16,464 bases of DNA, from the NCBI GenBank assembly GCA_021204715.1, contig JAJPYW010000014.1:1-16464 (forward strand), given 5' to 3'. The translations under genes and the position numbers were made by a program. Shown here in pieces: positions 2,615 to 15,138 of the stretch. This stretch comes from Prevotellaceae bacterium. Its GTDB lineage: Bacteria; Bacteroidota; Bacteroidia; Bacteroidales; Bacteroidaceae. The notes under the pieces are model-generated. The model made no database searches. It was not told the origin of the DNA and was given only the letters and a program-made list of their open reading frames with translations. Positions within the stretch are counted from its first letter, which is position 1; every line of letters starts with the position of its first letter.

Positions 2615-4360
2615 TTAATCATTTGTAACCAAAGAGTCGCTGTCGCCGCTTAATTTATAGGCAAGGACGTATCTTACGCGGCCGTTATAGTTACTTATCA
2701 TGGTACCGTTGGTGATTGAGACAGTTCCGGTAGTACCGTCGGCACTATGTATAACGGCCTTCCATACATCCGACTTGTCGTATTGGGTGGAAGTGTGGTA
2801 TGTAAAGTCACCGAATTGTACAGTATAGTCTGTATAGTTGAATGAGCCGCCATCTGCATTTGAAGTGTATAAACCTGATGCGCTCAATTTAGCACCGATA
2901 CATTCATGTAATTTTTCGGCCACTCCATCACCTTCGTAAGTGAAAGAGGTGCTGCCTACAGTGTAGTCCATATCGCACAGGTTTTTAAAGATAAGCGCCC
3001 ATTGTCCCAAGGAAGGAATATACCAACCACTGCAATTCGAGGCTGTCACGAGAAAATCGTCTCTCGAGTAGTTGGAGATTGTCCCTGTCCCGTTATAGTC
3101 GTTAACCAATGAGAATACCGCACCCCATCCATCAGAGCCTTCCGGAGCTTCGGAAGCCAAGAACAATCTGGTGTTGGTAAGTCCGTCCCAATCGGTGGCT
3201 ATGTCGCCCAAGTTTTCACTGGTGATATGGCTGACGCCGTCTATAAGACTCAAATTGTCTGCACTTACAGATTCTGATCCGAACCAAGTGACGTGAGAAC
3301 CGCTGTCGCGAATCGCCAATACATAGCCTGCATAACCTTCCGCGGCATCGGCATCGCTTACCTCGGTGCTGAATACAATGCCCACGATGCCTGCCGGCAA
3401 TTCGGCGGGGTCGGTATCGCCGCTGACGAAAGTGCCGTCGGAAAGCATGAAGTCGCCTATTTGCGGAGCTTCGGCCTCTTCTTCTTCTTCGGGATCAGTC
3501 CAGTCTTGGATGGCCGTTACGAGTTCCATCACGATGGCGCCTTCGCCCACTTTTGCGTTGTAGGTATAGTGGGTACCCTCCTTGAAGGTAGTGGTCTTGG
3601 GCAGGTAATACTCACCGCCGCCCGCGGTCATGAATACCGCGTCGCCCGAAACCTCTTGGGGAACGATAATGGCAGAGCAAGTGAAGGTGGTGGCGTCGCT
3701 GTCGTACACGGCGGCAGTGATGTCTCCGGGATCGGTGTTGTTGCTCATGGTGCCGTCTTCAAGATTGAACGTCGTGTTGATATATACGTTTTTGATGGTG
3801 ACGGTCTCGCCTTGCAGGTCGCTTATGTCACTGCCGATGAAGTTGATGTTGATCTTTGTAAACTTGTGGTAGAACAACAGGTCTACACTGGCATCGCTGA
3901 TGGTGGAAGTGGCGGTGGCATAGAGCAGGTCGCTGTCCAAGTAGCCATCGTCCGTGCTCTGGTCTTGCCGCACGGAGAAGTCGTTTGTGGTTGAGGAATC
4001 AAAACTGTTGTCGTAAGGAGCGTAGGCGATAATGGATACCGAACCCGATTCAGGATAGCTCATCGATTGTCCGGTAAAGCCGTCGTTGCCGTCGGTGGTA
4101 AGTGCCACGTTGGTGTAGCCCGTGTAGGTGGCGTCCTCACCGTCTCCGGTAACAAACACGCCTACTTGCCGGCCGGCGTCGAATCCCGTATTCTGCAACT
4201 CTTGGCTCACGCTGCGGGTGTTGCCGTTATATATGCTGCTTCTCAATACAATTGTTCCCGAAGGATTCGCTGTCCCTATACGCTCGTCGTTGTTGCAAGA
4301 CGAGATGCACAGTACAGTGGTCAAAAAGGCCACCCCTAATAAAAACCTTTTAGTTGTCAT
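2615..4360 (-). CDS. Fimbrillin-family lipoprotein with a C-terminal DUF1566/Lcl-like module
   Basis: The 581-residue product has a lipoprotein signal (ISSC, Cys22) followed by NNDE, which is compatible with surface export. Residues about 30-285 look like an Mfa-like fimbrillin domain (AYAPYDNSF at 113-121, SDLLY at 143-147, HKFTKININFI at 165-175). An acidic linker (DPEEEEEAEA, 289-298) leads to a second module from about 300 to 570. That module opens with GDFMLSDGTFVSG and carries GWYIPSLGQWALIF (445-458) and RVRYVLAYKL at its end, which resembles the C-terminal modules of Bacteroidales fimbrillin-like proteins related to DUF1566/Lcl folds. Ligand and function are unknown; surface adhesion or glycan capture is inferred from the PUL context. 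Its 3' part (about 2640-3340) is noticeably poorer in GC than the rest of the window, suggesting a separately acquired module. It starts 44 bases after the GH98 stop. Confidence 0.85.
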   Translation of the reverse strand: MTTKRFLLGVAFLTTVLCISSCNNDERIGTANPSGTIVLRSSIYNGNTRSVSQELQNTGFDAGRQVGVFVTGDGEDATYTGYTNVALTTDGNDGFTGQSMSYPESGSVSIIAYAPYDNSFDSSTTNDFSVRQDQSTDDGYLDSDLLYATATSTISDASVDLLFYHKFTKININFIGSDISDLQGETVTIKNVYINTTFNLEDGTMSNNTDPGDITAAVYDSDATTFTCSAIIVPQEVSGDAVFMTAGGGEYYLPKTTTFKEGTHYTYNAKVGEGAIVMELVTAIQDWTDPEEEEEAEAPQIGDFMLSDGTFVSGDTDPAELPAGIVGIVFSTEVSDADAAEGYAGYVLAIRDSGSHVTWFGSESVSADNLSLIDGVSHITSENLGDIATDWDGLTNTRLFLASEAPEGSDGWGAVFSLVNDYNGTGTISNYSRDDFLVTASNCSGWYIPSLGQWALIFKNLCDMDYTVGSTSFTYEGDGVAEKLHECIGAKLSASGLYTSNADGGSFNYTDYTVQFGDFTYHTSTQYDKSDVWKAVIHSADGTTGTVSITNGTMISNYNGRVRYVLAYKLSGDSDSLVTND

Positions 4361-4404: not shown

Positions 4405-7206
4405 TCATAAGCTTTCCACTACCATGTTGTCTATGTAGAACGAACCGGCTGCGGCCGCGTTAGCCTTGAGTTCTACCTTGTTGGAGCCTTCGTTCAAGTT
4501 GACGCCTACCGAGACTACTTCCCACGGGTCGTCGCCCGAACTGGTCTGGGTGAACTCGGGCGAAGCTACCAACGTGCCGTTGATGTAGAGGTCGACGGTA
4601 TCGATGGTGGCCGAAGGCGCGCTGTACTTGATGCGGACGGCGTAGGAGCCGTCGTTGTTCACCGTTACATAATCGCGCACGGCGGCACTGGCACTTTGTC
4701 CGAAGTTCATGTAGCCCAAGGCTGTGTAGTTCAACAAGGCGCCCGAAGTGCTGATGGCTTCTTTCACTACGCTCGACACGTTTTGGTACTCGAAGTTCTC
4801 CGCTTCATACTGGCGGGGGCCGTCGTAAATGTCGGGCGAGGCGGGTATGCCTATGTTGGCTTCCGTATAGCTTGTCTCACGGTCGGTGGCCGTTCCCGAG
4901 CAGTTCACGGTGAGATCCAAGGCGCCGTTGTGTTTTACGGTCAGGGTGAGCACGCCGTCTGTCCAGTCGTCGCTTACCGTGCAGGAATTACCCGATACAC
5001 GGTTGGTGTAGGTGTATGTGGGTTGTGATGTGCTGCCGCTTATCTTGATGACATCCGTCACCCCGGAACCGCCTTCGGTGTAGTTGGTCAAGTAGAAATT
5101 CACTTTGCTTGCATACTCCTTGATGACCGCCACGGAATACTTGCCGAAGGCCAAATCCATCTGTTCGGCCGTATTGTACTTGAAGGGTATGGAGGCTGTC
5201 TTGGTATCGGCATAGCAGTTGTAGGCCACCCACGTGTTCTCGTTGCGCCCCACGTACATGCCGTCGGCGGTGAACTCTTCTGGGAACAATGTGTTGAACT
5301 GGTTCTGCTTTATCTGCACGTTGCCCCAACCTGTACCCGAGGTGAACTGCGAGGCGTTGATTTGCACTTCAAAGCTGTTGGCCAAGTTGTCGGCCAATTC
5401 GGCTACCGTGGGTATGGCGGGATAACGGCCCGTCTTCTTGAAGAAGAGGTGGCTGTCGGACTGCGTGCCGTCTTCGTCCATCTTGTAGAGTCCTTCAAAC
5501 AGGTTGGCGGGTGCGGAATAGCCCGGATCCCACTTGGAAGCACCTGTGGGACTGATGTCGTTCACCACCACCACCTTGGTGCGTTCAATCACTTCTTGGC
5601 GGCTCAAGATGCGGATGGTACCGTCGAGTATCTTCCGGTAAATGTCTTGGTAGATGTTGTCGAACTGGCTGTAGGTTTCCCAATTGCGCTTGGTGTAGCC
5701 GTCGCCGGCACTCGAGGTGCTGCCCTCCTTGAAGCATTGCTGCCATATCAGTTCAGGCCCATCGAATACCGTCTGCCCGGTGAAGGTGATGTGCTCGATG
5801 ATGGGCAGCGCGCCGGCAGCCATGGGGTAATCATAATCGCCGTTCCAACCGCCGTCGTCTTGGTACCAGCCGCACTGGTCGTAGCGTATGCCGTAGTTCT
5901 GTGAGAATCCCGACACGAACACGCCGAGTGAGGTGCTCTCCATATCAAGGAAGCCGGTGGTCTGCGTGAACTTCTCGCAAGGAATGTAGTTCTCGGGATA
6001 GTTGCGGCAGGCGTCGGCCAAGTTTGCGTTGCGCTTTATCATGCCCACACCGCTCATGTTGGAGGCCCATTCGGGCAAGAAATAGCTTACAACCAAATAA
6101 CCGCCATACTCGTGGCTCAACTGCATGAGGCCCGCGAAATGTTGCAGACGCTCGTCGCTTGAGGAGTTGTAGCCGTCGAAGCCCCAGCCTTGTTCGGCGT
6201 AGACGAATCCCAAGAAGTTGGGATAGTCTTGGAAGAATTCCTCGAACAAGCTGCCTTTGAATTGGGAATAGCTCGAGTAGTCGGGCCACAGGCAACCGCC
6301 GCCGCTCGAACCTTGCACGGTGGCCCACACGTTGTTCTCGGCACACGTGCGCAACCACGACTTGGCTGTCTCGTAACCGTAGGCTACCTTGGCGAAGTTG
6401 CCGTCGTCGTCCTGCGAAGAGGAGAGCGCGATGTTGAAGATGACATACGGACGGATGTCGTCGGGAATCAGATCGATGATAGCTTGCGGGTCAGCCGTGT
6501 TCCAACAGTCTATGTGGATGAACCATGCCGGATAATCGGGCGTGATGGGACGCCGCAGCGTGCCGGTGGGCTCGATGGTGGTGCTTCCGCTGCTTGAACT
6601 CCGCAGCAGGGTGATGGTGTGCACGTCGCCCCGCAAGGAGAACTTCACTTGGGAAGCGTCGGCCGTGATGATTTCAGCGAAGAGGCTTTTGACGGTTCCT
6701 TCACCGGCTGTCTCCAACTGTTGCGTGATGCCACCGTATGTCACGGTCCAGTATCCGGCGGCGTCAATGTCGACGACCGGCGTCTCGCCGTCGATGACTT
6801 CCACTTTCTCTCCCGCAAGGGTGAGGTACTCGCCGTCCAACGTCCAGTAATAGGTACCGTTACTCTTCATCGCGCTGATGACGGGATAGTAGGTGGTGGG
6901 TCCTTCGGTGTCGCCTAACGTGGTGATGGAGGTCAACACGGTGAAACTGTTGCCGTCGGACAATTCCACTTGATAGGTGGAAGTGGTGAGCTGCACACAA
7001 GATTTCACAGTCAGTTCCTCCGCTTGCGCGGCCAACAGCTTTTGGAAAGCCCTGATGTTGGCGTTCATCTGCTCTACAGTCTTGTTCACTGTCGCGCCCG
7101 TATCGATACCTACATCCAAGTCATCGTCTGTGCATCCGTACAACACCACTGCGAAAATGGCCAAGAGGATGCTTGTTATACCGATTTTATCAAATAGATA
7201 TTTCAT
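4405..7206 (-). CDS. GH98 family surface lipoprotein, probable endo-xylanase on decorated xylan
   Basis: From the ATG at 7206 the product is 933 residues. A start at 7236 overlaps the previous stop (ATGA), but the signal peptide begins properly at MKYLFDK, with lipobox LYGC (Cys25) followed by TDDDLD, an export signal for the cell surface. Domains in order: a short coiled stretch and DUF4988/PL29-N-terminal-like region (about 40-200); the GH98 catalytic domain (about 219-560) with the hallmark WFIHIDCWNTADPQ (228-241) and IIDLIPDDIRPYVIFNIALS (243-262); a beta-rich C-terminal GH98 domain (to about 790); and a CBM35/CBM6-like module (798-933, opening RQYEAENFEY). Likely catalytic acids are Glu338 (VYAEQGWGFD), Asp443 (RYDQCGW) and Glu485 (DGPELIW), assigned by analogy. 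GH98 includes blood-group endo-beta-galactosidases and the inverting glucuronoarabinoxylan endo-xylanase of Bacteroides ovatus. The xylan-type neighbours favour the latter. Confidence 0.9.
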   Translation of the reverse strand: MKYLFDKIGITSILLAIFAVVLYGCTDDDLDVGIDTGATVNKTVEQMNANIRAFQKLLAAQAEELTVKSCVQLTTSTYQVELSDGNSFTVLTSITTLGDTEGPTTYYPVISAMKSNGTYYWTLDGEYLTLAGEKVEVIDGETPVVDIDAAGYWTVTYGGITQQLETAGEGTVKSLFAEIITADASQVKFSLRGDVHTITLLRSSSSGSTTIEPTGTLRRPITPDYPAWFIHIDCWNTADPQAIIDLIPDDIRPYVIFNIALSSSQDDDGNFAKVAYGYETAKSWLRTCAENNVWATVQGSSGGGCLWPDYSSYSQFKGSLFEEFFQDYPNFLGFVYAEQGWGFDGYNSSSDERLQHFAGLMQLSHEYGGYLVVSYFLPEWASNMSGVGMIKRNANLADACRNYPENYIPCEKFTQTTGFLDMESTSLGVFVSGFSQNYGIRYDQCGWYQDDGGWNGDYDYPMAAGALPIIEHITFTGQTVFDGPELIWQQCFKEGSTSSAGDGYTKRNWETYSQFDNIYQDIYRKILDGTIRILSRQEVIERTKVVVVNDISPTGASKWDPGYSAPANLFEGLYKMDEDGTQSDSHLFFKKTGRYPAIPTVAELADNLANSFEVQINASQFTSGTGWGNVQIKQNQFNTLFPEEFTADGMYVGRNENTWVAYNCYADTKTASIPFKYNTAEQMDLAFGKYSVAVIKEYASKVNFYLTNYTEGGSGVTDVIKISGSTSQPTYTYTNRVSGNSCTVSDDWTDGVLTLTVKHNGALDLTVNCSGTATDRETSYTEANIGIPASPDIYDGPRQYEAENFEYQNVSSVVKEAISTSGALLNYTALGYMNFGQSASAAVRDYVTVNNDGSYAVRIKYSAPSATIDTVDLYINGTLVASPEFTQTSSGDDPWEVVSVGVNLNEGSNKVELKANAAAAGSFYIDNMVVESL

Positions 7207-7232
7207 GTGTGTCATGTTTTTATGGTGTTTTG

Positions 7233-9497
7233 TCATTCACTCTCGTCACTCAATCCGTTCACGATGCCTTCATAGATTTCGGTACGTCCGTAGCCCGATG
7301 TCCAAGGACACAGCACGCTGCCGCCTTCCACTTGCGTCATGCTCGAGATGGATATGCCGTATTGGTTCTCCGGGGAAATCAACCGCCGGTATTCTTGCAT
7401 GATGAACGTTACGTAGGAGGCCGCCCGCTCGCGTTGTGCGGTCAGGGCGTCGTCGGCCGAGACGAAGTTGCCCGTCTCGTCTGCTACCATGACACTGAGC
7501 TCGGACACGCGCACGGGTCTGCCCGTGGCGGCGAGCTTGGTGAACAGCTCGGTTATTTCTTGCTCATAGCCCGCTTGGGTGGATTCTTTCTCGGAATACC
7601 ATGCGTTCAGGCGTATGTTGTACCCGTCTATCACGGTTTCGTTGTCGGGATCTTCCGTCTTGTCTTCCCATTCCTTCACCAAGTTGATGAGGTTGTCGGC
7701 GTTGCCGCTCACGTTGATGCCTTGGTAGAACGTGTTGCCCACGAAGAGCGTCAACGGTTGTTCCGAAGCCGCGCGCGCCATGCTCACGGCCTTGCGCGCA
7801 TACGCTTTCTCGCCCAAGTACTCGCCCCAGTTGAAGGTGTTGGCGTCGACGGTGTTGTCCAACGGCTCGCTGACTACATCCCACATCGTGATGTTTTCGC
7901 CGCCGGCCTCTACCATGCCGGTTATCCACTTGTCTAACTGTTCGGTCAGGATCTCTTCCTTCTCTTCGTCGGTCTTTTCGATGACGGTATCGCCTTTCCT
8001 TTCCCAGTTGAAGCTGATGTTGTCGATGTATCCATACCATGCACCCGATCCTGACCCGATGGTGAAGTCAAATTCGTTGAGCGCCGCCAAGTCGGAGCTC
8101 AACGAGAAGCTGCCGTCGGCGGTAGAGCCGTCGCTTAAAAGCGGTATGTTGACAACCCCGCGTCCCCATGCGTTGCTTGAGCAACCGTAGGTGGCGGGCT
8201 GGCTGCCGGTAAACGAGGTTCCGTTGATGCTCAAAGTCACGCCTACACCGTATATTCCGTTGCCGTCAATGAAATACATATCCACGGAGATGGAACTATA
8301 ATCACCCAACGTCATGCCGTCGTCCAACGTTACGTGGAATTCAGGATAGGAATAGACGGCCATGTCGTTGGCCGTACCTATCTGCAGCACGTTGCCGCTC
8401 TTGCCGGCCGGGTCGGCCACCACCACGGCTTGTGAACCGTTGGTCATGGGGTACTCGGTACCTATGGCGTCGTCCTCGAAGTCAATGGTCGTGGCGCCGT
8501 CGGCCACTGTTTGCCAAGTGAAGCCGATGTTGTCGATATAGAAATCTATATTGGAGCCTTGGCACACGCCGATGGCTATCTGGAACTCGGTGAGGTCTTT
8601 CAAGGCGGTATGCCAGCTCTCGTTCTCGATGGAATAGGATATTTGTGTCCACCTTTCTGAAGACTCCATGCTGCTCAAGCCATCACTGAATTCCGACCTG
8701 TACTGGTTACGGTCGGTCCATCCTTCCGGGAGGATGTAAAGGCGGAAGGCGGCGTTCCAACCGTCGGATATGTAGTAGGAGTCGAAGATGAAGTCTTTCA
8801 TGTCGCCCAATGTCTTGCCGTCGGGCAACTTGACGTCGAACACGGGCAAGTGGTATTCAGCCGTATAACCTTCGGCTTCGGAAATGTGGAGCACCTTTCC
8901 CCTGCTGCCCGACTCGGTGGGGTCGTACTCTACCTTGTCACCCAATAGATCCGGTTGGTCGAGGTACTGGACGGAGGCGTAGTACTTGCCTATTTCATCG
9001 TCTTCAAAGTCAATCAAGATTGTCTGGCCGGTTTCTGAAACGAATGGAATCACCTCGTCGGCTATCAACCCGTTCAAGTAGGTGGCCGGCTGTCCTTGGT
9101 TGGAGCAGAGCGCTCCGCCATAGACGGTCACGCCATCGTCGGCGGCCGCTTGCCCCAAGGTCTTGACATCGCTGAAGTCATAATCTCCACCCGAGTCGAT
9201 CATGTCGGCAGGTGTGTAGGCCCCGTTGACGTCGATGCCCTCGAAGTTGTTTATCATTGTGGAGTAAGCCAGTTTCTTGGCTTCAAAATCGCCCGGCGCC
9301 ATGGTGGTGGCAAGAATGAAAGGCGATCCCGCTTCGCGCACGATATACGACTTCAACACGTCGAAGTAATTGAGGTATTCTTGCGTGGCTACGTCCGTGG
9401 GCTTTTCGGGCGTGTCGATGGTCACATCATACTCATCGATACATGCCACGCATGCTAACGAGAACGCGCATACAGCTAATTTATTTATATATTTCAT
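7233..9497 (-). CDS. xyn10C: GH10-type lipoprotein with two inserted carbohydrate-binding modules and an altered active site
   Basis: Taking MKYINK at 9497 as start gives 754 residues with a lipoprotein signal (Cys19, then IDEYD). An upstream ATG at 9527 overlaps the DUF1735 stop but would add an unlikely N-terminal extension. The N-terminal GH10 half (about 40-150, VYGGALCSNQG then YLNGLIADE) is separated from the C-terminal half (about 505-750) by two tandem beta-sandwich modules. This is the interrupted layout known from xylan-system Xyn10C enzymes. The acid/base Glu544 (WDVVSEP) and nucleophile Glu666 (RVSELSV) are present. Many other conserved residues are changed: the usual GHTLxWH is GGALCSN, Asn before the acid/base is Ser543, TQMH is IRLN, ELD is ELS, and the Trp near the C-terminus (GITxW) is Ser. 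Residues near 70-105 show no clear ENxMK-type motif. It may be a weak or re-specified xylanase, or a xylan-binding protein. Ligand contacts were inferred from remembered family motifs, not from an alignment. Confidence 0.85.
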   Translation of the reverse strand: MKYINKLAVCAFSLACVACIDEYDVTIDTPEKPTDVATQEYLNYFDVLKSYIVREAGSPFILATTMAPGDFEAKKLAYSTMINNFEGIDVNGAYTPADMIDSGGDYDFSDVKTLGQAAADDGVTVYGGALCSNQGQPATYLNGLIADEVIPFVSETGQTILIDFEDDEIGKYYASVQYLDQPDLLGDKVEYDPTESGSRGKVLHISEAEGYTAEYHLPVFDVKLPDGKTLGDMKDFIFDSYYISDGWNAAFRLYILPEGWTDRNQYRSEFSDGLSSMESSERWTQISYSIENESWHTALKDLTEFQIAIGVCQGSNIDFYIDNIGFTWQTVADGATTIDFEDDAIGTEYPMTNGSQAVVVADPAGKSGNVLQIGTANDMAVYSYPEFHVTLDDGMTLGDYSSISVDMYFIDGNGIYGVGVTLSINGTSFTGSQPATYGCSSNAWGRGVVNIPLLSDGSTADGSFSLSSDLAALNEFDFTIGSGSGAWYGYIDNISFNWERKGDTVIEKTDEEKEEILTEQLDKWITGMVEAGGENITMWDVVSEPLDNTVDANTFNWGEYLGEKAYARKAVSMARAASEQPLTLFVGNTFYQGINVSGNADNLINLVKEWEDKTEDPDNETVIDGYNIRLNAWYSEKESTQAGYEQEITELFTKLAATGRPVRVSELSVMVADETGNFVSADDALTAQRERAASYVTFIMQEYRRLISPENQYGISISSMTQVEGGSVLCPWTSGYGRTEIYEGIVNGLSDESE
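8001..8492 (-). repeat. Second inserted CBM-like module of the GH10 protein
   Basis: This encodes residues about 336-499. It opens with TTIDFEDDAIGTEYP and closes with GYIDNISFNWER, mirroring the first module. The protein copies are diverged, so the duplication is old or the modules were recruited separately. The module ends just before the acidic stretch EKTDEEKEE, where the GH10 fold resumes. Confidence 0.7.
8514..9020 (-). repeat. First inserted CBM-like module of the GH10 protein
   Basis: This encodes residues about 160-328 of the GH10 protein. It opens with TILIDFEDDEIGKYY and closes with IDFYIDNIGFTWQ, and the second module has the same opening and closing motifs. The fold type expected for such inserts is a CBM4/CBM22-like beta-sandwich that binds xylan. 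Aromatic residues such as Trp247, Trp260, Trp283 and Trp295 are candidates for sugar stacking, which is inferred. Confidence 0.7.
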
Positions 9498-9523: not shown

Positions 9524-10513
9524 TCATTGCTCAACCGTGGAGAAATACTCCTGTGTGACGCCCCTGTACTGCATTACCAATGTGTCCACCGTCTGGTAAA
9601 CGGCGTTCAGGTCGGGGATGTCCACCGTGTAGTCCAAATAGAGCGCGTCGCGGTCTTTGCCGCCGAAGCTCTCCTTCTCCCCTTGGGCCACATACTTGCC
9701 GGTGCCGGTGGCGGTCACGTTCTCCGTGTTGCTGCCCACCGTGCAGGTGCCGTCCTCTTGGAACGAGAGTTTCAGGTCTACCACATAGTTCACGCCCGCG
9801 TTGTCCTTGTAGGTAATGGGCAGGCTGTTCTCCAAGTAGCCGGTAGTGTAGGTCTGCACCTGCTCGTCGTTCTCCACATACTCATAGTGCCGGGCCACTC
9901 CGTTGACCACGCCGTTTGAAGTAACTATATCCGTGCCGTGACGCAGGTAATGGGCTTCCCAAGGATTGATGTACTTCAAGGCGTAGAGCACGTAATCCTT
10001 GTCTTCGAGGATGGAGTCCACGCCCTGCACAATGCCCGTGATGCGCAGCGGAATGACGTAGGTGGTTTCAATCGACAGTGGGTCGTTGAAGAAGGCGTCG
10101 GCCAATTCCACTTTCACGCCGCCCAATATCTCGCCTTTGTTGATGCGCAGCTTGTCGTCGTCCAACGTATAATAGTTGGTAGGCATGGGTGTGACCTTTT
10201 TCACGGCTACATCTTCTTCGGCAAACCAAAGGTTGTCGCAGAGGGACTCGTCTACCGTATAATTCAACACGATGTCTTTTTTGTTCCCGTAGGAACCGCC
10301 CATGGTAGCCTTTATCCATATACAGTGGTTGTTGTCGTCGCTCAAGTCCCATTCGGGGTCGTTGCCCAACTCGACGGTACGTATCGGCGTCTGGGCTGCA
10401 AAATAGGCTGTCTGGTAATCGAAATCGCTGTACACCGGGTCGCCGCTCTCGCAAGAAGCGCCTAAGGCCATCAGTGCGCCCATCAGTATCCAATTGTAAA
10501 TCCTCTTTTCCAT
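9524..10513 (-). CDS. xusE: DUF1735 (BT_3987-like domain) lipoprotein, XusE-type
   Basis: From MEKRIYN at 10513 the product is 329 residues with lipobox GASC (Cys21) followed by ESGDP. ATGs at 10534 and 10543 are alternatives: 10543 overlaps the SusD stop, and 10534 has AAGGA 8 bases upstream. The N-terminal part (about 30-185, with YYTLDDDKLRINKGE and TTYVIPLRITG) matches DUF1735, a beta-sandwich found in SusCD-linked lipoproteins. The C-terminal part (about 190-329, starting NPWEAHYLRHGTDIV) resembles the DUF4361/DUF5627-type lipocalin-like domains that often follow. In xylan utilization systems the gene between the second susD and xyn10C is xusE, and this gene sits exactly there. Its probable role is surface glycan binding that assists the transporter, inferred from position and family. 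Confidence 0.85.
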   Translation of the reverse strand: MEKRIYNWILMGALMALGASCESGDPVYSDFDYQTAYFAAQTPIRTVELGNDPEWDLSDDNNHCIWIKATMGGSYGNKKDIVLNYTVDESLCDNLWFAEEDVAVKKVTPMPTNYYTLDDDKLRINKGEILGGVKVELADAFFNDPLSIETTYVIPLRITGIVQGVDSILEDKDYVLYALKYINPWEAHYLRHGTDIVTSNGVVNGVARHYEYVENDEQVQTYTTGYLENSLPITYKDNAGVNYVVDLKLSFQEDGTCTVGSNTENVTATGTGKYVAQGEKESFGGKDRDALYLDYTVDIPDLNAVYQTVDTLVMQYRGVTQEYFSTVEQ

Positions 10514-10536
10514 AATCGTTCTGTTGTAATGCATAG

Positions 10537-12303
10537 TTACCATCCTTTGTTTTGTTCCAAATTGTTAAACTTCAAGGTTTCCGTATAGGGAATAGGCCCG
10601 TAATACATGTAGTCCTTGTAGGCGCGTTCCTCCACGTCCATATACGTGTAAGTCGAACCGTTTACATCCACGCCGCGGGCCGTCTCGTTCATGTCGGCTT
10701 TCCAACGGCGCAAGTCCCATATACGGAACCCCTCGAAGCAAAGCTCCAAGCGGCGCTCGTTGTGGATGAGCTCGCGCATCAAGTCTTGGTCGGCGGCACA
10801 CGTCTCCAAGTAGCGGTCGCTGGTTCCGCCCACACCGGCGCGTTGGCGGATGGCCTTGATTACATCGTAAGCCGAATAGCCGTGCGTGCCCGTTCCCGTA
10901 GGTCCCCATGCTTCGTTGGCGGCCTCGGCATAGTTCAAGAAGATTTCCGTGGCGCGGATGCGCGGCCGGTAGTGCGTCTGTCCGCTGGTGGATACCGGGT
11001 TGCAGTTCACCGACATAATTAAGAACTTCTTCATGTAGTAGCCCGTGCGCGTGCTGGTGGAGATGACGTTGAGCCCGTCCTCCGTACCCGACTGGCTGCC
11101 CGTATAGATGGTAGAACTCGACGGACCCTCGGTGGCGCCGTTGTAGATGATGTAGTCGTACAGGCGCGGGTCGCGGTTGCTGTAGGGGTTGCTGCTGTCA
11201 TACCCGCTGGCCGCGTTGTCTATGGGATAGCCGTTGGCCATGGGGAAGGCGTCCACCAAGTTCTGTGTGGGGTTCATCCTGCCGTTGCCGAAGAGCGTGG
11301 GCGGATAGTGCTTGTCTTCCAAGTCCGTGTTGTTGGTCTGCACGTTCTCGCGCCATATCATCTCGTCGGGATTGGCGCCTTCGGCCAAGTTGCTTATCTC
11401 GTCCGTGTTGGTGTACCACGTTACCCCGTTGGCGGCCAAGCCGCTTATGCCGCCTTTCAAATCAATGACCTCGGCGGCGGCATCGGCGGCATCCTCCCAC
11501 GTCACTGTGTTGCTGGCGTCTTGGAATTGCGGGCTGGCGGCCATCAAGAGCAGGCGCGAGCGGATGGCTTTGGCAATCATGCCGTTCAACAGCTGCCGGG
11601 CGTCGTTGCCCATGGCGTTGTTGTAAAGTTCCCAAGAGGTGGTGATGCTTTGGTATTTCTCAGGCACTTCCGCTCCATCGGCCAAGTCGTTGTAGTCATC
11701 GGGCAACAACTCTTCGGCGGTGGCAAGGTCGTCGAGCGCCTGCTGCACGCACTCCATGAAAGTGGATCGGGGAATGTTGAAGTCGGCGTCTGATTCCAAG
11801 AACTCGTTGATAATAGGCACGCCCATCAGCCGTCCGTCGTCAGTATAGCCGGCGTGCGAGCGTAGCAGCAGGTACATGTGCAGCGCCCTCAAGCCGAAGG
11901 CCTCGCCCCGGGTGCGCATGTTGATGAGTTCCCTTACCGAGAGGTCGTTCACGTAGTCAATGTCCACGCCGTTCTCTATGTACTGGTTCAGGTACAGGAT
12001 GGCAGCGTAAGAAGCGTCCCAGCGGGAAAGCGGGTCGTTGCTCGAGGTCCATGTACCGGTGGCCATCTTCAGGTAACTGCTGGTATAGTCGTTGGTTACA
12101 GCGTCGTCGGTGGCGTAGTCCCAATCCTGTATATAGCTGGGTATCGCGCTGTACCCCCTTGTGAGGAAACTTTGGCCGAAATTGGGCTCGGTGGTCATCT
12201 GGCTCAAGTCTTTGAAGTTCTCGTTGGCCGGCTCGAACAGGTCCGAACAGCCCGTCATCAGGAAAGAACCGGTCAACAACGCCAATATAATCACTCTTTT
12301 CAT
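10537..12303 (-). CDS. xusD: SusD/RagB-family nutrient-binding outer-membrane lipoprotein
   Basis: The product is complete at 588 residues. It has lipobox MTGC (Cys19) and ends in the Gly-Trp typical of SusD proteins. SusD hallmarks include TRGEAFGLRALHMYLL (131-146, a tetratricopeptide-like helix), NRDPRLYDYI (377-386), EIFLNYAEAANEAWG (453-467), AIRQRAGV (484-491) and ERRLELCFEGFRIWDLRRW (516-534). SusD proteins lie on the cell surface over the SusC pore and capture oligosaccharides. Here the probable ligands are xylan-derived chains, as the neighbours suggest. The gene follows the SusC gene by 27 bases and its stop overlaps an ATG of the DUF1735 gene, which suggests translational coupling. 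The Trp at several surface positions cannot be assigned to the binding platform without a structure. Confidence 0.95.
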   Translation of the reverse strand: MKRVIILALLTGSFLMTGCSDLFEPANENFKDLSQMTTEPNFGQSFLTRGYSAIPSYIQDWDYATDDAVTNDYTSSYLKMATGTWTSSNDPLSRWDASYAAILYLNQYIENGVDIDYVNDLSVRELINMRTRGEAFGLRALHMYLLLRSHAGYTDDGRLMGVPIINEFLESDADFNIPRSTFMECVQQALDDLATAEELLPDDYNDLADGAEVPEKYQSITTSWELYNNAMGNDARQLLNGMIAKAIRSRLLLMAASPQFQDASNTVTWEDAADAAAEVIDLKGGISGLAANGVTWYTNTDEISNLAEGANPDEMIWRENVQTNNTDLEDKHYPPTLFGNGRMNPTQNLVDAFPMANGYPIDNAASGYDSSNPYSNRDPRLYDYIIYNGATEGPSSSTIYTGSQSGTEDGLNVISTSTRTGYYMKKFLIMSVNCNPVSTSGQTHYRPRIRATEIFLNYAEAANEAWGPTGTGTHGYSAYDVIKAIRQRAGVGGTSDRYLETCAADQDLMRELIHNERRLELCFEGFRIWDLRRWKADMNETARGVDVNGSTYTYMDVEERAYKDYMYYGPIPYTETLKFNNLEQNKGW

Positions 12304-12330: not shown

Positions 12331-15138
12331 TTAGAATTTAGCGGTCACACCGAGATTGTAGAAACGGCATTGCGGCGTGGTGCCGATGTTCATCTCCATA
12401 TACTTGTGTTCTTTGGAGATGGTGAGCAGACTCTCGCCGCTCACGTAGACGCTCATGCCTTTCAACACCTTGTTCTTCATGAACCACTCTTCGGGCATGT
12501 TGTAGGTGAGCTGCACGCGGTTCAGCTTGAAGCACCTCGTGTTGTACCGCCAGAAGGTGGAGCTTTGGAAGTTGTTGGTGTTGCTCTGCGTGGTAAGGCG
12601 CGGATAGGTGGCCGTGTCGGCCGTCTCGGGCGTCCAGCGTCCCCACACCACTTCAGAGTACTTGCGGTCGCCGTACACCCACCAGTAGGTGTTGTTCTTG
12701 TAGCCTATGCCGCCTGCCTGCCCCGAACCCAAGGCGAAAAGCGTGAAGTCCTTCCATTTCAAAGTCAAGTTCACGCCGAAAGTGAAGGGGTTGCCGCTGT
12801 TGCCCAATACCACCCGGTCGTTGGTGTCGATCTGGCCGTCGCCGTTCACATCTTGGTATTTCAAGTCGCCGGCTTGCACGCTGCCCAGAGTCGAGGTATA
12901 GCCGCCATCAATGTCGTCCTGCGTGAGGAAGCCCTCGCACACATACCCCCATGAGGCGTTGAGTGACCGGCCTTGCGTGCGCAAGTAGTCATATTCCACC
13001 GCCTCGTCGCGTCTCAAAGCCTTGCTGCGGTAGAGCATGCCCATGAATCCCAACGTGGCGTCTACTTTGCCAACGCGTTTGTTCAAGTAAATCGAGAAGT
13101 CGAAACCTTGCCGGCGGTCGTTGTTGTAGTTGATGTAAGGTGTAAGTCCTGCCGTTGCGTAATATGAGGGGAAGGTAGTGGCATCGCTGATGAGCCCGCC
13201 GTCGGTGTCCTGCGTGAAGAGGTTGAAGTCGAACTTCACGAGTCCTTTCAGCAACGAACCTTCCAACCCCACGCGGTACTCCTCGCGGGTGAGCATGCGC
13301 AGCTGGTCGTTGTCGCCCCTTACGTAGCCGTAGAACCAGCCGCCTTGAGAGGCGTCCTTCCACTGGAACCAGTTGCTCTGGGTATTGAACGTACTTTTAT
13401 AGAGATAGTAGTCGCTGATGTCGATGTCTTGGTGCAGCAGCGAGTAGGCGGCGGTCAGTTTCAAATTGTCCACCCAAGTGACGTTCTGCATGAAGTTCTC
13501 TTTGTCCAATCTCCAGCCCAACGTGATGGATGGAGAGAGGGCGTTGCGGTGGTTCTCGGGCAACTTGGCCGAGTGTACCACGGCCAGCCCGAAATCGGCA
13601 TAGTAACGGCGGTCGTAGTTATACCGGGCGCTGAGCCCCAAGTTCACGTTGCTGGTGCGGTGGTAGGTACTGCCGTCGTTGTTCTCGTCCTTGCCGTCTT
13701 GCTCTTGGAAACCCCAGCCCACCAATGTGGCCGACACGTTGTGCAGCCGGTTGAACTGACGGTTGTAGTCGAACTGCGCGCTGAAGGTGATTACCTGCGA
13801 CATGCTCGAGTTGTCCACCGTTTCCGAAGTGGACTGCTTGTCCAAGTTGTATTGTGTCAAGTCCACAATCACATCCTTGCCGTTCACGTTACTCCACGTG
13901 GGCTCGTACACGGCGTAGGTGTTGTTGTAATCCTCGGTATAGTAGTCCATGTAGTCTATGTTGAACAAGGTCTTGAAGGAAAGCCCTTTGAGCAACATGT
14001 CGAGCTTGGCGTCCAAGCCCACTTGGAACGAGAAGTTGCGCTGCTTCACGGCCTCGTAGCCAGCTACCGACAAGTCGGCGAAGGCGTTGGTGGTGTCGGT
14101 GGAACGGCCGCCAATCAAGTACTTGCCGTCAATCACGTTCCCGCTGCCGGCCACGATGGCGGCGATGTCGCTGTTGTCCATGTCCATTTGGTCAATGGGT
14201 AGCAACGGTGCGAACCAGTTGGGGCGCAGGTTGGCCGACTGGTTCCAGAAACCGTAGACCGAACTCTTCGTGCTGTGGGTGTTCTCGATGATTACCCCGG
14301 CGCTGGCGAAAGCCTTCATCCAGTCGGTCACTTTCAACTCCACGTTCGAGAGCAGGTTGAACTTCACGTAGTTGTCGCCGCTTGCCTGGCCGTATTTCAA
14401 CAAGGTGTTGTTGTAGGTCAACGACATGTTGGCGTAATACTTGGCGTTGTCGTTACCGCCGGTCACCTCGCCGGTCACGTCGGTCTTGTTGTACACCCGG
14501 CGCAAGTTGTCATGGGTGAAGTACTTGGTGTCGGGATAGCGGTAAGGATTCGTTCCCATGGCCGTGTTGTAAATGTCGGCGTCGCTGTACAGCGCCGACA
14601 GACCGTCGTTGGCACGCGCCTCGTTGTAGAGCGTCATGTAAGAGGCCGCGTCCAAATAGTTCGGATAAGACTTGGGCACATACAAGCCGGTGTTCGCCCT
14701 CATGTCGATGGACAGCGGCTGCTCCTTTCCCTTTTTGGTTGTAATCAGCACGGCTCCCTTGGCGGCGCGGCTGCCGTAGAGCACCAACGCGCTGGCCGCC
14801 TTCATCACCGTGATGCTCTCTATCTGCGAGGGCAGCACCGTGGAGGCGTCGCGGGGCACGCCGTCCACCAATACGAGCGGCGACTGTCCCCACGTGTTGC
14901 CGTCATAACCGCCTACGAAGCTTTGCAAGCCGTCCGTACTGCCCGTATAATACTCCTTCTTCATGAGATCCTCCACGTCGATGGCCGTCACGCCGCCAAG
15001 CAGGTCTTGTTTCTCCACATCTGTGAAGGCCACGTGCACCTTGGTGGTGTCGGAGGGCACTTGCGCCCATGCTTCCACGCCCGTAAGGTGAATTGCGGCA
15101 ACCATCGGGATAGTGATCAATGCATTATATAATTTCAT
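12331..15138 (-). CDS. xusC: SusC/RagA-family TonB-dependent outer-membrane transporter lacking the N-terminal carboxypeptidase-D-like domain
   Basis: The 935-residue product has a type I signal peptide (cleavage near AWA-Q, residue 25) and then a candidate TonB box (KVHVAFTDVEKQDLLGG, 33-49). The plug follows directly, with SPLVLVDGVPRD (86-97), IESITVMKAASALVLYGSRA (106-125) and AAKGAVLITTKKG (125-137). The beta-barrel fills the rest and includes the common DVNGDGQIDTNDRVVLG extracellular loop, and the chain ends in aromatic Phe. There is no room for the regulatory-like CarboxypepD domain found in longer SusC proteins. That is known among the second transporters of tandem susCD systems. It moves oligosaccharides captured by SusD into the periplasm using TonB energy. 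It starts 39 bases after the stop of the preceding SusD gene, with AAGGA just upstream of the ATG. Confidence 0.95.
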   Translation of the reverse strand: MKLYNALITIPMVAAIHLTGVEAWAQVPSDTTKVHVAFTDVEKQDLLGGVTAIDVEDLMKKEYYTGSTDGLQSFVGGYDGNTWGQSPLVLVDGVPRDASTVLPSQIESITVMKAASALVLYGSRAAKGAVLITTKKGKEQPLSIDMRANTGLYVPKSYPNYLDAASYMTLYNEARANDGLSALYSDADIYNTAMGTNPYRYPDTKYFTHDNLRRVYNKTDVTGEVTGGNDNAKYYANMSLTYNNTLLKYGQASGDNYVKFNLLSNVELKVTDWMKAFASAGVIIENTHSTKSSVYGFWNQSANLRPNWFAPLLPIDQMDMDNSDIAAIVAGSGNVIDGKYLIGGRSTDTTNAFADLSVAGYEAVKQRNFSFQVGLDAKLDMLLKGLSFKTLFNIDYMDYYTEDYNNTYAVYEPTWSNVNGKDVIVDLTQYNLDKQSTSETVDNSSMSQVITFSAQFDYNRQFNRLHNVSATLVGWGFQEQDGKDENNDGSTYHRTSNVNLGLSARYNYDRRYYADFGLAVVHSAKLPENHRNALSPSITLGWRLDKENFMQNVTWVDNLKLTAAYSLLHQDIDISDYYLYKSTFNTQSNWFQWKDASQGGWFYGYVRGDNDQLRMLTREEYRVGLEGSLLKGLVKFDFNLFTQDTDGGLISDATTFPSYYATAGLTPYINYNNDRRQGFDFSIYLNKRVGKVDATLGFMGMLYRSKALRRDEAVEYDYLRTQGRSLNASWGYVCEGFLTQDDIDGGYTSTLGSVQAGDLKYQDVNGDGQIDTNDRVVLGNSGNPFTFGVNLTLKWKDFTLFALGSGQAGGIGYKNNTYWWVYGDRKYSEVVWGRWTPETADTATYPRLTTQSNTNNFQSSTFWRYNTRCFKLNRVQLTYNMPEEWFMKNKVLKGMSVYVSGESLLTISKEHKYMEMNIGTTPQCRFYNLGVTAKF

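Follow-up and report, generated by a model that had tools for sequence, protein, structure and literature searches.

The window, i.e. the whole 16,464-nucleotide stretch of DNA analyzed here, encodes a GH10-like protein of 754 amino acids with a ruined glycone site (P0001; 7233..9497, minus strand). On the same strand this gene is preceded by those for a SusD-like protein (the second of two, cut by the contig end; 15178..16464), a SusC-like transporter (12331..15138), the other SusD-like protein (10537..12303) and a BT_3987-like/DUF5627 protein (9524..10543) homologous to PDB 3N91, which is BACOVA_03430 (3.6e-84). It is followed, again on the minus strand, by a gene for a GH98 endoxylanase homolog (4405..7236; 968 bits to 9h6f), after which come two fimbrillin-like (Mfa_like_1) proteins (2615-4360 and 1558-2514) and a SASA-type acetylesterase that includes a GH2 sugar-binding-like part and is truncated by the contig edge (1-1500). 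According to PMC11216935 and PMC4855328, the combination of a double SusCD, a DUF1735+DUF5627 protein and a GH10 constitutes the published core xylan utilization cluster, and PMC4855328 describes the version in PUL-XylL of B. ovatus as carrying an inactive GH10. The window order, SusD, SusC, SusD, 3N91 homolog, GH10-like and GH98, is the layout of PUL-XylL. PDB entry 9h6g, from the same set as 9h6f, is titled as the E361A form of the B. ovatus GH98 endoxylanase, and Glu348 and Asp453 of the window GH98 protein (counted along the alignment) align with Glu361 and Asp467 of that enzyme, to which PMC4491172 assigns catalytic roles.

The GH10-like gene is an uninterrupted frame of 754 codons, all of its parts lying on the minus strand. 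It starts with a lipoprotein-type signal (9441..9497) whose Cys19, followed by IDEYD, is invariant across a 30-sequence family alignment; we take this lipobox-like signal to be a surface-export signal. The GH10 barrel, together with a PF00331 match exceeding the cut-off, establishes membership in the family and is split into a first part (residues 46-152; 9042..9362) and a second part (residues 503-753; 7239..7991). Between them lie the beta-rich insert 1 (residues 156-333; 8499..9032) and insert 2 (residues 334-502; 7992..8498), which are homologous to each other (BLASTP 2e-12). The predicted fold of insert 2 is a beta-sandwich resembling several carbohydrate-binding modules, with weak scores. 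A Foldseek search of the PDB gave no match for the inserts with an E of 0.001 or below, and in a PDB profile search with the whole family they matched only rusticyanin (E 0.005 and 0.011, among the best 60 of 86 rows). A viral structure library gave one match under E 0.001, an uninformative phage tail protein.

Active-site residues and the counterpart in B. ovatus

Both catalytic positions of the window protein, Glu544 (acid/base) and Glu666 (nucleophile), are Glu. However, the motifs around them are gone: Ser543 (Ser543-Glu544, 7866..7871) replaces the Asn before the acid/base, GGALCSN (9119-9099) replaces GHTLxWH, IRLN (residues 628-631; 7605..7616) replaces TQMH, Ser718 (7344..7346) replaces the Trp of GITxW, and the nucleophile position reads Glu666-Leu-Ser668 (7494..7502). 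These substitutions and their positions, reported earlier by a sequence-only reading, were all correct on re-checking. Altogether 8 of 11 key GH10 residues are lost, namely His80, Trp84, Asn126, Gln203, His205, Asn44, Lys47 and the GITxW Trp, and the -2 subsite is disrupted, with Gly92 and Thr95 where Asn and Lys are expected. His80, Trp84, Asn126, Glu127, Gln203, His205, Glu233 and the GITxW Trp are all retained in 15 of 15 sister GH10s from related genomes (32-38% identity); L024, from the same list as these sisters, is itself degenerate.

The earlier comparison with Xyn10C proteins of similar loci fits this sister group, but the true counterpart is BACOVA_03431. Active Xyn10C-type GH10s (Pm25, BXY_29300 and BACOVA_04390; PMC7848910 and PMC4855328) share with the window protein the gene slot, the barrel and the presence of two inserts between beta3 and alpha3 (CBM4s in the Xyn10C type), and Glu546 and Glu663 of Pm25 correspond to Glu544 and Glu666. 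They differ in being xylanases, whereas the window protein has lost most of the key residues. PMC4491172 describes BACOVA_03431, encoded in PUL-XylL, as a GH10-related surface lipoprotein that is inactive on xylans and binds birch glucuronoxylan and corn xylan; its inactivity is attributed there to a missing nucleophile and disruption of the -2 subsite. The same source places a GH30-GH98-GH115 array in PUL-XylL and identifies 3N91 as BACOVA_03430. In the genome matching B. ovatus (G020), the protein preceding a GH10-like gene aligns with 3N91 across 311 residues without a visible mismatch, and downstream lie a 547-aa gene lacking any Pfam match, a GH98 and a GH115. Since the 3N91 match stands before it and the downstream order fits the published array, this gene was taken as BACOVA_03431. 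It reads Asn at the acid/base and Asp at the nucleophile, and its residues place it in the same clade as the window protein.

The window protein is 42% identical to this presumed counterpart, and the two resemble each other in layout and synteny (SusC/SusD, a 3N91-like gene before, GH98 after) as well as in having lost GHTLxWH, the NEP Asn, the Gln and His of TQMH and the GITxW Trp. They differ in that the B. ovatus protein has Asn and Asp where the window protein has Glu at both catalytic positions together with Arg629, and in that the window lacks the 547-aa gene between GH10-like and GH98. As Glu666 is present, the nucleophile loss named for BACOVA_03431 does not apply to the window protein, so that its inactivity is inferred from the other losses and its placement from clade and synteny. 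A GH98 was found at only some of the other main-clade loci (L040, L041, L045, L047, L048, L050 and L056).

The conserved clade and the origin of Glu666

Of the 7995 best candidates in a homolog search, 170 proteins reached E 0.001 or better. In the 120 listed, including the window protein, the nucleophile column contains Asp in 109, Gly in 5, Asn in 5 and Glu only in the window protein; the acid/base column contains Glu in 85, Asn in 32, and Gln, Lys and a gap once each; and the preceding column contains Gly (86), Ser (21), Ala (9), and once each Cys, Asp, Asn and a gap. The earlier suggestion that the substitutions might define a branch is borne out: they are common to a main clade that comprises 49 rows once sequences are thinned at 90% barrel identity (support 100/100, stem 1.32), and the grouping of the window protein with BACOVA_03431-type members receives 100/100 in both trees. 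Residues fixed in the clade and different in active GH10s include Ser132, present in all 49 rows, and Gly128, present in 48. At 18 barrel positions the clade and the active GH10s are each fixed for different residues, and 13 of these are at or beside the old active-site motifs (96, 128, 132, 626, 627, 628, 630, 632, 663, 668, 716, 730 and 731). Three clade members are publicly named endo-1,4-beta-xylanase (P0010 and P0085 in NCBI, P0094 in UniRef). Tallies of GH10 matches may thus overstate xylan-degrading capacity.

Against this background the earlier statement that both catalytic Glu are kept is literally true but misleading, for none of the other 119 listed homologs has Glu at the nucleophile position, and the window protein falls among members with Gly or Asn. 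The members closest to it have Gly in four cases and Asn in one at this position, and its nesting is supported at 99/97, within nodes of 100/98 and 100/96, and at 100/97, 100/100 and 100/98 in a second tree. That the nucleophile was simply kept since an active ancestor is disfavored by this nesting; AU tests placing the window protein outside the rest gave p 0.127 (barrel columns, key sites omitted) and p 0.0435 (full length minus column 666, with the group named after the tree had been seen), which do not firmly reject it. A tree without regain needs at least five separate losses along the path to the window protein, so one loss and one regain is simpler, and Glu666 is probably a regain rather than preserved machinery, as judged from the trees. 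Codon 666 is GAG in the window; at the equivalent position of 14 loci it is GAC/GAT in 11, and GGT, AAT and GGA once each, the GGA coming from a Pedobacter protein outside the clade. With GAC/GAT in the relatives and GAG in the window, Asp to Glu is a change of one base. Among degenerate GH10s of another lineage (lineage 2, see below), L100, as well as P0121 and P0132 among 18 full-length clusters, also combine both Glu with a broken pocket, which shows that decay can give rise to such a state.

The intact Glu pair constitutes weak evidence for catalysis. With Glu544 and Glu666 in place, the latter the sole nucleophile Glu among the 120 listed homologs, and with the AU values allowing a basal position at which it was retained, the window protein might have kept or regained weak GH10 hydrolysis, perhaps with a changed -1/-2 pocket. 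We consider this improbable, given that the eight other key residues listed above are replaced and that the nearest group has Gly or Asn at the nucleophile, requiring at least five losses if there was no regain. Because the pocket is gone, there would be little reason to expect catalysis from a lone Glu pair, and Glu666 is probably a secondary, functionally neutral change. Nothing here supports a changed substrate or a different mechanism, both of which had been raised by the sequence-only reading.

Whole-gene dN/dS was 0.05-0.15 in 7 of 7 pairs of main-clade relatives, and 0.04-0.18 when the barrel and insert values of these pairs are included as well, the window gene being too distant from any relative available as DNA for inclusion. 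Barrel and inserts are alike under purifying selection in these relatives, implying that the barrel is not being discarded. That the window gene might be a decaying pseudogene or a sequencing error could be argued from its being represented by one contig of a draft genome and two member sequences, from the single base separating the GAG of Glu666 from Asp, and from a broken copy in B. reticulotermitis, whose main-clade gene is split into separate frames (L045 10001-12209). This is scarcely credible in view of the intact 754-codon frame, the sharing of the substitutions across a large clade and the low dN/dS of the relatives.

A retained or new binding cleft is suggested by the 13 positions at or beside the old active-site motifs. 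The idea that the old active-site columns form a specially conserved new cleft was rejected: conservation at the 11 key columns does not significantly exceed that of the remaining barrel, since their observed mean was reached in 16% of 2000 random draws of barrel columns. Hence, such a cleft is suggested rather than shown.

Proposed role of the window protein

Clade, synteny, lost residues, predicted fold and purifying selection on relatives form the sequence basis for interpreting the window protein as a binding protein. Taken together, they make it very likely that the locus serves complex-xylan utilization and that the window protein, a surface lipoprotein of the BACOVA_03431 type, binds xylan and is not a catalyst. 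By analogy with the B. ovatus member of the same clade, reported in PMC4491172 to be inactive and xylan-binding, the window protein would itself be inactive and bind xylan, and the earlier proposal of a binding-only protein thereby gains support. The barrel would have been inherited from an active core-cluster xylanase of the Xyn10C type; after the loss of the glycone site it would have been kept as a scaffold, and perhaps as a binding cleft, carrying the two inserted CBM-like domains. The protein would hold decorated glucuronoarabinoxylan at the cell surface, binding mainly via the two inserts, while the neighboring GH98 endoxylanase would cut the held xylan and SusC/SusD would import the pieces. 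The GH18 chitin-binding lectins, a comparison drawn in PMC4491172, likewise represent a TIM-barrel hydrolase that has become a binding protein; they belong to another family with another ligand, and the parallel is an analogy only. In the genome carrying the window, which is 72% complete, a single further GH10 match was recovered, and we count this against a purely binding role.

In the open-licence literature, with the terms used, no naturally inactive GH10 other than BACOVA_03431 was found described; PMC4855328 and PMC11610566 refer to the inactive GH10 of PMC4491172. The latter of the two, a 2024 review, points out that the tested xylans are not degraded by Phocaeicola vulgatus and P. dorei although both have a GH10 gene, and guesses at a binding role for that GH10. 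The single naturally inactive GH10 of the 2015 report (PMC4491172) here becomes a large conserved clade.

Degenerate GH10s in the slot of the core xylan cluster

The window DUF5627 protein was used as the query against 158 same-genus and 393 same-order genomes, and matched 60 and 47 of these, respectively (the window's own genome counted in each). In 80 downstream stretches a GH10 was present in 61 and absent from 19; about 11 stronger matched places and the weak ones were omitted (contig edges, second copies and choice), and the main-clade places and L062-L068 were obtained outside this census. L080 is represented by its second, larger ORF in place of a 340-aa first one, and L109 by the first of two ORFs. 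By the 11 key residues the 61 slot GH10s fall into 54 missing 0-1, 6 missing 5 or more and one fragmentary, with none missing 2-4. Two of the six, L087 and L088, are main-clade members. Degenerate GH10s outside the main clade are L062 (G021), L066 (G007), L100 (G234), L144 (G384), L069 (G020), L109 (G218), L120 (G267) and L049 (Pedobacter), and their loss patterns differ. The slot also holds other GH10s that were ruined differently.

Excluding the window's, 12 of 13 same-genus genomes with a main-clade member also hold a slot-type GH10 missing 0-1 key residues; the thirteenth, G209, has three strong GH10 matches, by family match only. G021, G007 and G234 (the last 83% complete), by contrast, each yield no GH10 family match besides the degenerate one (3 of 3). 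In G218 (59% complete) the GH10 family search gave zero matches, its degenerate protein being missed too.

Trees for the number of origins omitted fragments, second GH10s per locus, L061_2 and near-identical rows. A single clade for all 31 degenerate rows is rejected by the AU test (p 0.00026), and the tree needs four changes, all forced by starred branches. Once the long rows L109, L120, L049 and L001 are removed, a single clade of the main clade, L069 and lineage 2 is not rejected (AU p 0.43) and starred branches force only one change, so that the rejection leans on long, uncertain rows. Four independent losses are not claimed for this reason; the trees point to at least two origins, with a point estimate of four. 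Barrel identity leans toward separate origins for the main clade and lineage 2: to four whole-site GH10s it is 46-51% for L062 and L100 and 43-45% for L066, as against 28-34% for these three to four main-clade rows.

The lineage 2 GH10 adjoins a weak BT3328-like match in G007 (L173, L172), G234 (L176) and G021 (L174). In the G007 locus PL8 (twice), GH88 and an alginate lyase occur after the GH10, and GH29 and GH31 before it; these neighbors suggest another target glycan for lineage 2. For the window protein, the PL8 and GH88 near this other degenerate lineage and the weak BT3328-like neighbors could be taken to mean that a different polysaccharide is bound or cut, the PUL core having been redirected from xylan. 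We regard this as very unlikely, as the next gene in the window encodes a GH98 endoxylanase homolog with both catalytic residues, as in PUL-XylL.

More generally, we tentatively propose, at somewhat less than even confidence, that the GH10 slot of the core cluster has repeatedly turned from cutter to binder by different losses, that lineage 2 (L062, L066, L100 and the 18 full-length clusters), the sole GH10 in the three genomes examined, may have moved to a uronate-rich glycan, and that G020 carries a second degenerate GH10 in a xylan-type locus. This wider pattern holds more interest than the window protein alone, and the lineage 2 members with both Glu and a broken pocket could make the order of losing catalysis and becoming a binder experimentally traceable.

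The second degenerate GH10 of G020 (L069, L058; C1 ~3142310-3144037) has 586 aa, with Cys at the acid/base and Asp at the nucleophile; it follows a 3N91-like gene and is succeeded on the same strand by GH115, GH2, GH97, GH43-CBM6, GH95, GH3 and GH67. In G173 (L061; C75 ~111479-114154) two GH10-like genes occur in tandem: the first, a 901-aa frame whose start is missing from the stretch analyzed, reads Ser-Asp for the usual Asn-Glu, and the second has the whole key-site set.
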